Made by a program: the position numbers and the translations under genes. Below, piece by piece: positions 3,011 to 15,434 of a stretch of DNA of 49,969 nt. The notes under the pieces were generated by a model. That model worked only from the letters and a program-made list of their open reading frames with translations. It did not search any database and was not told where the DNA came from. The DNA comes from Methanobacteriota archaeon (GTDB lineage Archaea; Thermoplasmatota; Thermoplasmata; Methanomassiliicoccales; UBA472): contig JAJFUR010000019.1 of assembly GCA_021372335.1 (NCBI GenBank), positions 1 to 49,969 on the forward strand, read 5' to 3'. Each line of letters starts with the position of its first letter. Positions within the stretch are counted from its first letter, which is position 1.

Positions 3011-3176
3011 AATAATTGAATGGATTGAACGATAAATCCTTACATATATTCATTGAATTGAATTGTAATTCGCTGATGGCACCGAAATGTATTAAAATCT
3101 ACATTGCCTCATGTATTTTAGACGCGGAGCAGCCGAGGGCTTCAGCCGCCAGCCGCTTCCGTTCGAGGCCCCCTCC

Positions 3177-4280
3177 ATGAAGTCATTTATCAGCGACGCC
3201 ATGTCCCGAGCCGGTCCAGCAAGCGAGGCTAGCATGCACACATTCAAGGCCCAGACGGCCGAGGATGAGGAGCTGGAAAAGATCCTGTTGAGCCTGAAGA
3301 CCAACATCAAGATCCTTGGATGCGGTGGTGGAGGCTGCAATACGATAGACCGTCTGTATGCCAGCAGCATCAAGGACGCTGAGCTGTACGCCGTCAATAC
3401 CGACGCGCAGCATCTGCTGATCACTAGGGCCCACAAGAAGATCCTGCTCGGCCGCCGAAGCACCAAGGGCTTGGGCGCCGGATCGCTCCCCCAGGTGGGA
3501 GAGGAGGCCGCCCGGGAGGCCGAGGAGGAGCTGCGCAAGGTGCTGATGGGAGCGGACATAGTGTTCATCACCGCGGGCCTGGGAGGGGGCACCGGCACTG
3601 GCTCTGCCCCCTACATCGCCCAGCTGGCAAAGGAGATGGGGGCCTTGACGATCGCCATCGTCACCTCCCCCTTCAAGGCCGAGGGATCGATCCGCGCGGA
3701 GAACGCCGAATGGGGCATGGAGCGCCTGCGGGCCGTGGCGGATACGGTCATCGTCATCCCCAACGACAAGCTATTGGAGCTCGTGCCCCGCTATTCCATC
3801 AACGCCGCCTTCAAGGTGGCCGACGAGGTGCTCATGCGGTCCATCAAGGGGATAACGGAGCTGATCACCCGGCCCGGGCTGGTCAACCTGGACTTCAACG
3901 ACCTGAAGACCATCATGAAGGGCGGAGGCGTTGCCATGATCGGCCTGGGGGAGGGCGAGGACGAGGACAAGGTCGAACAGGCCATCGACGAGGCGATCAA
4001 CTCCCCGCTGATCGACGTGGACATCACTGGCGCCAATGGGGTGCTCATCAATGTCACGGGCGGTGAGGACATGAGCGTCAGCGAGGCCGAGAAGGTCGCC
4101 GAGGTCATTCAGAGCAAGGTCAATCCCAACGCGAGGATCATCTGGGGCGCTTCCGTCGACCCGGCCCTGGAGAACAAGATCAGGGTGATGGTCGTGATCA
4201 CCGGGGTCAAGTCCAAGTACATCCTCGGACCGAAGGAGACCGCCGCGCCCAAGGGGATGACGGTGGACTTCATCCGGTAA
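3177..4280 (+). CDS. ftsZ: Cell division protein FtsZ, paralogue B
   Basis: A 367-residue FtsZ with the full GTPase core: [10 protein letters not shown] near residue 48, tubulin signature GGGTGTG at 136-142, and T7 loop [11 protein letters not shown]. It is closely similar to paralogue A throughout, so a lineage duplication or conserved tandem pair is likely. The ATG at 3177 aligns the N-termini of both copies. The reading frame continues upstream to 3111 without a convincing start. The C-terminus ends MTVDFIR. A TATA box for the next operon follows the stop almost at once. Confidence 0.95.
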
Positions 4281-4333: not shown

Positions 4334-4561
4334 ATGGACATTGTCGACAAATCCTGGGAGGTCCAAAAGAGGATCGAGGAACGGGTCAGACTGCTTGGCA
4401 AGGGCAAGTACGGCCGCGTCCTGAAGATGGCCAGAAAGCCAACGAAGGACGAGTACTCCAAGACGGTCATGATCACCGGCCTAGGCCTCTTCCTCATTGG
4501 CGGCCTTGGCTTCGCCATATACATATTGGTGACCCGGCTTCCGGGATGGCTCGGCCTTTGA
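4334..4561 (+). CDS. secE: Protein translocase subunit SecE / Sec61 gamma
   Basis: A 75-residue single-span protein. The N-terminus is an amphipathic helix with the conserved KPTKDEYSK segment, followed by one transmembrane helix at about residues 45-68 (VMITGLGLFLIGGLGFAIYI). SecE clamps the SecY channel in the cytoplasmic membrane. Its place directly before spt5 and rpl11 is the standard archaeal gene order. The stop is 18 nt before the spt5 ATG. Confidence 0.93.
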   Translation: MDIVDKSWEVQKRIEERVRLLGKGKYGRVLKMARKPTKDEYSKTVMITGLGLFLIGGLGFAIYILVTRLPGWLGL

Positions 4562-5443: not shown

Positions 5444-5923
5444 ATGGCAGAGACTATCGAAGTGCTAGTGGATGGCGGAAAGGCCACTCCCGGTCCGCCG
5501 CTGGGGCCCGCCCTGGGCCCGACGGGCATAAACGTCGTTCAGGTCGTGAGCGCGATCAATGAGAAGACCAAGGGGTTCGCCGGCATGAAGGTCCCGGTGA
5601 AGGTCATAATCGACCAGAAGACCAAGACCTTCGAGATCAAGGTCGGCACGCCGCCCACCTCGGCCCTGCTGTTCAAGGAGCTGGGCATCGAGAAGGGCGC
5701 TGGGGCCCCCAAGGCCGCCAAGGTCGGTAACATCTCCATCGAGCAGGCCAAGAAGGTCGCCCACATGAAGCAGGACTCCCTGACCGGCGCCGACGTCAAG
5801 GCGAGGGTCATGGAGGTCATCGGCACCTGCGCCTCCTGCGGCATTACCGTGGAGGGCAAGGAGGCCAAGGACATCCAGGCGGAGATCAGGGCGGGCAAAT
5901 GGGATGCCCAGCTGCAGGGCTGA
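5444..5923 (+). CDS. rpl11: 50S ribosomal protein L11 (uL11)
   Basis: A 159-residue protein of usual archaeal length. The N-terminal domain contains GGKATPGPPLGPALGPTGIN. The C-terminal rRNA-binding domain contains SLTGADVKARVMEVIGTCASCGITVEG. uL11 forms the GTPase-associated centre with 23S rRNA and the P0/L12 stalk. AAGGAG precedes the ATG, which comes 4 nt after the spt5 stop. A pyrimidine-rich stretch follows the gene, before a new promoter for rpl1. Confidence 0.97.
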   Translation: MAETIEVLVDGGKATPGPPLGPALGPTGINVVQVVSAINEKTKGFAGMKVPVKVIIDQKTKTFEIKVGTPPTSALLFKELGIEKGAGAPKAAKVGNISIEQAKKVAHMKQDSLTGADVKARVMEVIGTCASCGITVEGKEAKDIQAEIRAGKWDAQLQG

Positions 5924-5965
5924 GATCCCTCCGCCCCAAACGCCTTTCCCCCGTTTTACGATATC

Positions 5966-5973
5966 TTTATAAA
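5966..5973 (+). promoter_or_regulatory. TATA box for rpl1-rpl10-rpl12
   Basis: TTTATAAA is a near-consensus TATA element in the rpl11-rpl1 gap. It predicts a transcript starting at about 5995, immediately before the leader hairpin. Confidence 0.65.
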
Positions 5974-6002
5974 TGGCAGGGTGATTAGGGGGCTTCACCA
6001 AA

Positions 6003-6044
6003 CTGTAGGAGAGCCTTCGTAGGCTCGATGGAACTACAGGAGGG
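6003..6044 (+). promoter_or_regulatory. Candidate L1-binding leader hairpin overlapping the rpl1 RBS
   Basis: CTGTAG (6003-6008) pairs with CTACAG (6034-6039), and GAGCC (6011-6015) pairs with GGCTC (6022-6026). Between the stems is an asymmetric loop: GA on one side and GATGGAA on the other. Two short helices joined by such a loop describe the known L1-binding fold of 23S rRNA and archaeal L1 mRNAs. The closing strand runs into the AGGAGGG ribosome-binding site (6038-6044), so bound L1 would block translation. Autoregulation here is inferred. Confidence 0.6.
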
Positions 6045-6050
6045 ATCGAA

Positions 6051-6689
6051 TTGGCAGATAAAGCAATCGTTACGGCCGTTAAGAAAGCCTTGGAGCGTTC
6101 TCCAAAGCGCAACTTTGTGCAAACGGTCGACCTGTCCATCAACCTGAAGGACGTCGATATGTCCATACCCAAGAACAGGATCCAGGAGGACATCATTCTG
6201 CCGCACGGGAGGGGAAAGCCCATCAAGGTCTGTGTTATCGGCAGTGGAGAGATGCTGCTCAAGGCCAAGGACGTGGCCGACCGGGTCGTGTCCGTGGAGG
6301 AACTGGGCACCATCGCCGATGACAAGAAGCAGGCCAAGAAGATGGCCACCGAGTTCGAGTACTTCATTGCGGAGGCCCCATTGATGCCCACCATCGGTAA
6401 GAGGCTGGGCATAGTGCTTGGTCCCCGCGGGAAGATGCCGAAGCCAATCCCCCCGGGCGCGGACCCCAAGCCCATGATTGACAACCTGCGCAGGTCGGTT
6501 CCGGTCAGGAGCCGGGACAGATTGACGTTCCACACCGCTGTCGGGACCACGGACATGCCGCCAGAGGAGATAGCAGACAACATCGAGCAGATCGTCAAGA
6601 GGCTGTCGACCAAGCTCGAGAAGGGCACCATGAACATCCGGTCCGCCTTCGTGAAGACCACCATGGGACCCTCCGAGAAGGTGATTTGA
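6051..6689 (+). CDS. rpl1: 50S ribosomal protein L1 (uL1)
   Basis: A 212-residue protein of usual archaeal length. It is recognisable by the GPRGKMPKPIPPGADP region and the terminal IRSAFVKTTMGP segment. uL1 forms the mobile stalk that releases deacylated tRNA. It is also a classical translational repressor of its own mRNA in methanogens. The start is TTG, chosen because AGGAGGG lies 6 nt upstream; the ATG at 6028 is out of frame. It leads the rpl1-rpl10-rpl12 unit, with a gap of 13 nt to rpl10. Confidence 0.95.
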   Translation: MADKAIVTAVKKALERSPKRNFVQTVDLSINLKDVDMSIPKNRIQEDIILPHGRGKPIKVCVIGSGEMLLKAKDVADRVVSVEELGTIADDKKQAKKMATEFEYFIAEAPLMPTIGKRLGIVLGPRGKMPKPIPPGADPKPMIDNLRRSVPVRSRDRLTFHTAVGTTDMPPEEIADNIEQIVKRLSTKLEKGTMNIRSAFVKTTMGPSEKVI

Positions 6690-6702: not shown

Positions 6703-7698
6703 ATGGCACACGTAGCGAAATGGAAGAGGGAGAGGGTGCAGGGGCTGGTCGACCAGATGGTCAACAGCCAGGTTGTCGGGATAGTCGATCTGCACGGCAT
6801 TCCCGCCGCCCAGATGATCTCCATGCGCGCCGGTCTGCGCGGGAAGGCCGAGGTGAGCATGACCAGGAACACCCTCATGGACCTGGCCATCACCGAGGCC
6901 GCCAAGAAGCGGCCGGGCCTGGAGCAGCTGAGGCGGATGGTGGAGGGACAGTGCGCGATCGTCACTACGGACGAGAACCCGTTCAAGCTGTTCCGCCAGA
7001 TGGAGGGCACCAAGACCCCGGCCCCGGCCAAGCCCGGGGACATAGCGCCGGAGGACATAGTGGTGAAGGCGGGGGAGACCCCATTCAAGCCCGGCCCGAT
7101 CATCGGGGAGCTGCAGAAGGCAGGCATCCCGGCGGCCATAGAGTCCGGGAAGATCATAATCAAGAAGGACAAGGTCCTCGTCCCCAAGGGCGAGCCCGTC
7201 CCCGAGGAAGTGGCGAAGGTACTGGCCAAGCTGGAGATCCTGCCCATGATCGTGGGCATGGACCTCAGGGCCGCCTTCGAGGACGGGGTGCTCTACGGGA
7301 AGGACGTCCTGAACGTCCCGGCGGACTATTACACCAACTTGCTTGGTCTGGCCGCCAGGAACGCTCTGGGCCTGAGCTTGTCAATAGCCTATGTCACGCC
7401 TCAGACCGTCACGCCCTTGCTGTCCAAGGCCTACCGCGAAGCGATGGCCCTGAGCGTGGCGAGCGCGTTCCCCACCAGGGAGAGCATCGGTGCGATCCTT
7501 GCGAAGGCCGACGCGCAGATGATGACCTTGGCCTCGATCATCGGTTTGGAAGATGACCGGATAAAGCACAGGATGGCTGCGGTCCCCGCGGCCAAGCCGG
7601 TGAACGAGCCCAAGGCCGCTGAGGCCAAGAAAGAGGAAGAGGAGGAGCGGGTCAGCGAGGAGGAAGCCGCCGCTGGCCTGAGCTCTCTGTTCGATTGA
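6703..7698 (+). CDS. rpl10: 50S ribosomal protein L10 / acidic stalk protein P0 (uL10)
   Basis: A 331-residue archaeal P0-type protein. The N-terminal rRNA-binding domain starts AHVAKWKRERVQGLVDQM. The middle holds the archaeal/eukaryal insertion and long helices that dock L12 dimers. A charged linker ends in VSEEEAAAGLSSLFD, nearly the same as the tail of L12 next door. That shared tail is the known contact for translational GTPases. GGAGG precedes the ATG, and the rpl12 start follows 12 nt after the stop. Confidence 0.96.
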   Translation: MAHVAKWKRERVQGLVDQMVNSQVVGIVDLHGIPAAQMISMRAGLRGKAEVSMTRNTLMDLAITEAAKKRPGLEQLRRMVEGQCAIVTTDENPFKLFRQMEGTKTPAPAKPGDIAPEDIVVKAGETPFKPGPIIGELQKAGIPAAIESGKIIIKKDKVLVPKGEPVPEEVAKVLAKLEILPMIVGMDLRAAFEDGVLYGKDVLNVPADYYTNLLGLAARNALGLSLSIAYVTPQTVTPLLSKAYREAMALSVASAFPTRESIGAILAKADAQMMTLASIIGLEDDRIKHRMAAVPAAKPVNEPKAAEAKKEEEEERVSEEEAAAGLSSLFD

Positions 7699-7710: not shown

Positions 7711-8019
7711 ATGGAATACATATACAGTGCTTTGGTCCTTCACGCCGCTGGGAAGCAGGTGTCCGAGGACGCGGTCGCCGCTGTCCTGAAGAGCGCCGGT
7801 GTCGAGCCGGACGCAGCCAGGATAAAGGCCTTGACCGCCTCCCTGGAGGGTGTGAACATCGATGAGGCTATCGCCTCCGCGATGGTCGCCGCCGCGCCAG
7901 TCGCTGCCGCTGCTGCGCCTGCCGCCGCTCCGGCCGCCCCGGCCAAGGAAGAGCCCAAGGAAGAGGAGCACGTCAGCGAGGACGAGGCCGCAGCCGGTCT
8001 GTCCGCGCTGTTCGGCTGA
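7711..8019 (+). CDS. rpl12: 50S ribosomal protein L12 (P1-type stalk protein)
   Basis: A 102-residue protein of the archaeal aP1 family: [22 protein letters not shown] is the typical dimerisation N-terminus. It is followed by an Ala-rich hinge ([19 protein letters not shown]) and an acidic tail ending GLSALFG. Multiple dimers on P0 recruit elongation factors. GGAGG lies 7 nt before the ATG. The operon ends here, with T-rich tracts following. Confidence 0.96.
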
Positions 8020-15362: not shown

Positions 15363-15434
15363 GCGGGCATAGTCTAGTGGTTAGGACTGAAGCTTCCCAA
15401 GCTTCGAACCCGGGTTCGAATCCCGGTGCCCGCA
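15363..15434 (+). tRNA. tRNA-Gly (anticodon CCC)
   Basis: A 72-nt cloverleaf. The acceptor stem GCGGGCA pairs with TGCCCGC, discriminator A. The D arm is GTCTAGTGGTTAGGAC. The anticodon stem GAAGC/GCTTC encloses the loop TTCCCAA, giving anticodon CCC (reads GGG). The T arm is CCGGG-TTCGAAT-CCCGG. There is no intron. The 3' CCA is not fully encoded (ACCT follows). A TTTTAAC element about 30 nt upstream could be its promoter. Confidence 0.95.

Follow-up and report, generated by a model that had tools for sequence, protein, structure and literature searches.

The sequence that we analyzed (the window) is a 49,969-nucleotide stretch of contig JAJFUR010000019.1 (assembly GCA_021372335.1) from an archaeon of the order Methanomassiliicoccales, phylum Thermoplasmatota. 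The element of interest lies directly upstream of a gene for ribosomal protein uL1, in the following arrangement.

3111-4280: ftsZ
4334-4561: small ORF where secE usually lies, no Pfam match
between this small ORF and uL11: spt5/nusG
5444-5923, + strand: uL11, the gene upstream of uL1 (Pfam PF03946/PF00298)
5966-5974, + strand: TTTATAAAT, predicted from sequence as the archaeal TATA box for uL1-uL10-P1 transcription
6051-6689, + strand: uL1 (L1), TTG start, the proposed repressor (Pfam PF00687, E 8e-54)
6703-7698, + strand: uL10, downstream in the same presumed operon (Pfam PF00466/PF17777)
7711-8019, + strand: P1 (archaeal L12), the acidic stalk protein (Pfam PF00428)

The uL11-uL1 spacer is 127 nt long and holds the TATA-like TTTATAAAT, followed by a hairpin at 6003-6039. 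The uL1 product closely resembles archaeal L1 chains of known structure. Elsewhere in the window, a tRNA gene at 15363-15434 was the sole Rfam match at the gathering level.

A sequence-only reading had placed an L1-site mimic at 6003-6044, and the sequence is found exactly there. It reads, in succession, CTGTAG, GA, GAGCCT, TCGT, AGGCTC, GATGGAA, CTACAG and GAGGG, and is divided as follows.

6003-6008, + strand: stem 1, 5' arm CUGUAG (sequence, RNAfold, covariation)
6009-6010, + strand: asymmetric loop, 5' side GA (NA in all relatives having a site)
6011-6016, + strand: stem 2, 5' arm GAGCCU (RNAfold, covariation)
6017-6020, + strand: hairpin loop UCGU (variable, and tens of nucleotides longer in some families)
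6021-6026, + strand: stem 2, 3' arm AGGCUC (RNAfold, covariation)
6027-6033, + strand: asymmetric loop, 3' side GAUGGAA (7 nt with a final A in most class relatives)
6034-6039, + strand: stem 1, 3' arm CUACAG, which shares AG with the Shine-Dalgarno
6038-6043, + strand: Shine-Dalgarno AGGAGG (a GAGG-type element after CUAC is kept in the order)

RNAfold returned the two-stem structure as both the minimum free energy (MFE) and the centroid fold of 6000-6060 (-16.6 kcal/mol), and the structure also formed within the longer segment 5985-6090. The asymmetric GA/GATGGAA loop that had been proposed appears in both folds. Of the two perfect stems claimed, stem 1 has the expected 6 bp, whereas stem 2, which had been counted as 5 bp, has 6 bp in the fold. 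The closing strand runs, as had been noticed, into AGGAGGG (6038-6044), which is followed by ATCGAA and then by the TTG at 6051. The start codon is thus 6 nt from AGGAGGG, 7 nt from the Shine-Dalgarno AGGAGG and 11 nt from the 3' end of the hairpin, which places the site in the translation initiation region of the uL1 operon transcript. The fold pairs only 2 of the 6 bases of the Shine-Dalgarno. The folding energy was unexceptional when compared with dinucleotide shuffles (z of -1.91 for 6000-6060, where 10 of 200 shuffles folded as well, and -1.21 for 5985-6090). Folding energy alone is therefore weak evidence for the element, and conservation is decisive.

We searched for the uL1 gene in 60 relatives and read 57 leaders, including that of the window. 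All 57 leaders from the order display GUAG, NA, stem 2, a loop and CUAC, followed by a GAG(G)-type Shine-Dalgarno, and by direct reading the 3' loop is 7 nt in every one of them. The covariation alignment comprised 47 distinct order-level leader sequences. Pairing was retained in 97.1% of its cells, as opposed to 90.7% in shuffles and only 24-49% when the register was slid, and the covariation score was 0.281 as opposed to 0.162 in shuffles. The sequence-only reading had made its proposal depend on compensatory changes in relatives, and these are abundant: compensated two-sided changes, which affect both stems, occupied 36 cells versus 9.8 +/- 2.4 in shuffles, where cells count sequences rather than independent events. 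For this reason, we gave more weight to how many different pairs are compensated in unrelated families than to the counts. In one family, a whole base pair has been inserted into stem 1, converting CUG/CAG to CUUG/CAAG or CUCG/CGAG. The core of stem 1 (GUAG/CUAC) is invariant within the order. The bases of the 3' loop vary freely (often GNNNGCA), and only the final A is conserved. RNAalifold recovered the identical structure unprompted from the order leaders. Thus, the fold and the covariation agree on two helices separated by an asymmetric internal loop.

The predicted promoter shows a similar regularity. Of 92 order and class leaders, 73 have a TATA-like element whose first base is 28-41 nt ahead of the stem, and this placement indicates that the uL1-uL10-P1 mRNA probably begins just before the hairpin. 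In the window, transcription would start at about 5996-5998, a few nucleotides ahead of the stem, and the leader would probably consist of essentially the operator and the Shine-Dalgarno. At class loci of families f18 and f22 (L105-L118), the TATA-like element is inside the last uL11 codons (CTTATAAAG), so that the promoter overlaps the coding sequence.

The uL1 gene starts with TTG in 56 of the 57 order leaders, a weak start that may widen the range of control. Unusual codons were seen at other uL1 starts. At three loci (L128, L203 and L215), the codon at the proper distance from the Shine-Dalgarno is ACG, ATA or ATC, and there is no in-frame ATG, GTG or TTG close by; two loci (L103 and L118) have CTG. 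These could be near-cognate codons used for control; assembly or alignment error is also possible.

We evaluated how widespread the element is with a covariance model built from the order leaders, which was run on 300 class genomes at E <= 0.01. The model matched 152 of the 300, with exactly one match in each listed genome. We fetched 40 matches from other orders, selected to span many families, and all 40 directly precede uL1. Inside the order, the model missed a single genome, and no uL1 gene was detected in that genome either. A variant site, such as CUGUAG-UA-GGGG (L166-L168), is present in several class genomes that the model did not match. The core of stem 1 is swapped with compensation in distant lineages, giving AUAG/CUAU, GCAG/CUGC and GCGG/CCGC, and a compensated GUGG/CCAC core occurs in two leaders of the wider phylum (L188 and L206). 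Compensation of the core pairs thus extends across the phylum and beyond it, the AUAG/CUAU core being found in one group of Halobacteria's phylum.

The model found no match in two haloarchaeal genomes owing to a shorter stem 2 and 3' loop; the haloarchaeal leaders were therefore read directly. All 80 that were fetched in a single scan have the form CCGUAG-NA-G...C-short loop-CUACGGAGGU immediately before ATG. They resemble the leader of the window in their position directly before uL1, in the GUAG/CUAC core, in the NA 5' loop and in the run of the closing strand into the Shine-Dalgarno (CUACGGAGGUG), but differ from it in a stem 2 of about 3 bp, a 3' loop of mostly 3 nt rather than 7 and an ATG rather than a TTG start. 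Most of the other sampled members of Halobacteria's phylum show the same Shine-Dalgarno-overlapping design. Overall, a fixed structural descriptor of the site fitted 212 of 257 real uL1 leaders as opposed to 35 of 2,570 dinucleotide-shuffled ones, and among the 45 misses are several recognizable variants shut out by the strictness of the descriptor.

Some leaders carry additional structure. An extra hairpin on the 3' side of the loop, with the look of a three-way junction, was found in several Thermoplasmatota families (L179, L186, L189, L192, L193, L199 and L203). Most of the haloarchaeal leaders L216-L295 have another conserved inverted repeat, GACAGGC...GCCTGTTTCACTGA, which precedes the uL1 site by about 20-45 nt.

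Some Thermoplasmatota, including family f14 and part of f22, have no leader site, so control by the element is dispensable in evolution. The loci without it are L165, L169-L175, L177, L187, L201, L205 and L207-L209. Some of the lineages without a site look leaderless, with a TATA element about 25-30 nt before the ATG; in others, uL1 abuts uL11. We also considered relocation into the coding region for 27 uL1 genes without a site. The descriptor was matched within 150 nt of the start in 2 of these 27, compared with 6 of 167 others, which gives no clear sign of relocation. The missing sites look like losses.

Autogenous control by L1 through mimicry of its rRNA site is textbook knowledge. The 23S rRNA gene had no match in the incomplete assembly of the source genome, and the comparison was therefore made with the 23S rRNA of relatives, whose L1 site (H76-H78) reads GGCGG-GA-GAC...GUC-NACGAUGAAACA-CCGCC, with GAUGAAACA before the final CCGCC. 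It has in common with the leader the G-C closing pair, the 5' GA, the G-C pair that opens stem 2 and the A preceding the closing C. It is unlike the leader in the sequence of stem 1, in the long H77-H78 arm carried on stem 2 and in a 3' loop of 12 nt rather than 7. The leader thus has a 23S-like structure and key bases, with a likeness that is partial, since the length of the 3' loop and most of its bases differ. We dropped the idea that GAUGGAA is a base-for-base copy of the 23S GAUGAAA, because relatives vary this loop freely and do not keep the likeness. As judged from sequence, fold and covariation, the hairpin with its asymmetric loop reproduces the shape of the 23S site of uL1, and the apparent mimicry is one of shape and a few bases.

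Other L1 targets have the same general shape, as the sequence-only reading had held. The operator of Methanococcus vannielii and M. jannaschii lies inside the coding region, at about codons 10-22; its stem is GUGAAG/CUUCAC and its 3' loop has 6 nt. It follows the same plan as the leader (stem, GA, a stem opened by a G-C pair, a loop ending in A, closing stem). The operator sequence fits the descriptor, and its translation, VKEARELAKPRNF, occurs in chain 1cjs of M. jannaschii L1; structure entry 1u63 is also listed for a Methanococcus L1 chain. The site in the window precedes the start codon, so the contrast in position that had been drawn with Methanococcus is real, but the leader location proved to be widespread (80 of 80 haloarchaeal leaders and many others) rather than a peculiarity of this genome. 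In Halobacterium and Haloarcula, the L1e-L10e-L12e leader reportedly contains a copy of the L1 site, as Shimmin and Dennis are said to have described in 1989.

Mimicry sites for L1 have been reviewed for bacteria and archaea, and their binding is weaker than that of rRNA (PMC10931766). Like the leader, the bacterial operators before rplK or rplA are irregular stem-loops with an internal bulge that mimic 23S rRNA, and they serve autogenous translational repression; they belong to other lineages and another gene order, and several precede uL11 (PMC10931766). The archaeal r-leaders of Eckert and Weinberg (2020; PMC7247131) were likewise found by comparative genomics and include S15, eL15 and L4 types; their list contains no L1 leader. 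Rfam release 15 gave no match at the site with the gathering threshold, nor when 5900-6150 was searched at E <= 10, and a search of the literature available to us found no paper on a Thermoplasmatota L1 leader.

The protein that binds the hairpin might be other than uL1. Both uL10 and P1 share the presumed operon, and the bacterial L10(L12)4 complex represses its own leader (PMC4538822), so one could envisage the archaeal uL10-P1 stalk complex acting likewise. Such a role is very unlikely, given that the element adjoins the uL1 start throughout and that its asymmetric loop and bases match the 23S L1 site (H76-H77), not the stalk-base site. The extension of stem 1 into the Shine-Dalgarno would also suit a hairpin that needs no protein and hides the Shine-Dalgarno as a temperature or folding switch. 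With just 2 of 6 of these bases paired, we regard such a switch as highly improbable; it would have no need of the NA loop, the G-C pairs or the A before the closing C, yet these are kept across two phyla, both where the descriptor requires them and in the order and haloarchaeal leaders that were read directly. The chance that a fortuitous, functionless hairpin occupies the uL11-uL1 spacer is negligible: shuffled sequences can fold as well, but the covariation already refutes it, and conservation over two phyla and the excess of descriptor matches in real leaders also speak against it.

The element is, with high confidence, an autoregulatory uL1 operator in the 5' leader of the uL1-uL10-P1 mRNA, to which uL1 itself would bind. 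According to this model, uL1 in surplus over free 23S rRNA would bind the leader hairpin and cover the Shine-Dalgarno, whose first two bases are part of the closing strand, so that loading of the 30S subunit at the weak TTG would be blocked. Repression would lower uL1, uL10 and P1 together. By analogy with known L1 systems, fresh 23S rRNA, the tighter binder of uL1, would lift it. Since the Shine-Dalgarno is mostly unpaired, the hairpin alone should not stop translation; the free hairpin should permit it, and shut-off would come from the bound protein.

The likeness between the Thermoplasmatota and haloarchaeal leaders suggests common descent. We lean somewhat toward a single ancestral uL1 leader overlapping the Shine-Dalgarno, uncatalogued in Rfam and inherited by Thermoplasmatota and Halobacteria's phylum alike. 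It would have disappeared from a few lineages (a Thermoplasma-like family and some families whose uL1 genes are apparently leaderless), elaborated with hairpins in others, and paired with weak starts, TTG throughout the order and apparently ACG, ATA or ATC elsewhere.

What is new here is a well-supported and apparently uncatalogued r-leader in Thermoplasmatota. Established archaeal cis-regulatory RNAs are few, and the uL1 leader is compact, covaries strongly, occurs in two phyla and is missing from Rfam. An operator within the coding region, as in Methanococcus, is not the norm for the archaea of these two phyla. The natural variants of the leader, with their core-pair swaps, different loop lengths, extra hairpins and losses, are suited to testing how uL1 tells mRNA from rRNA.
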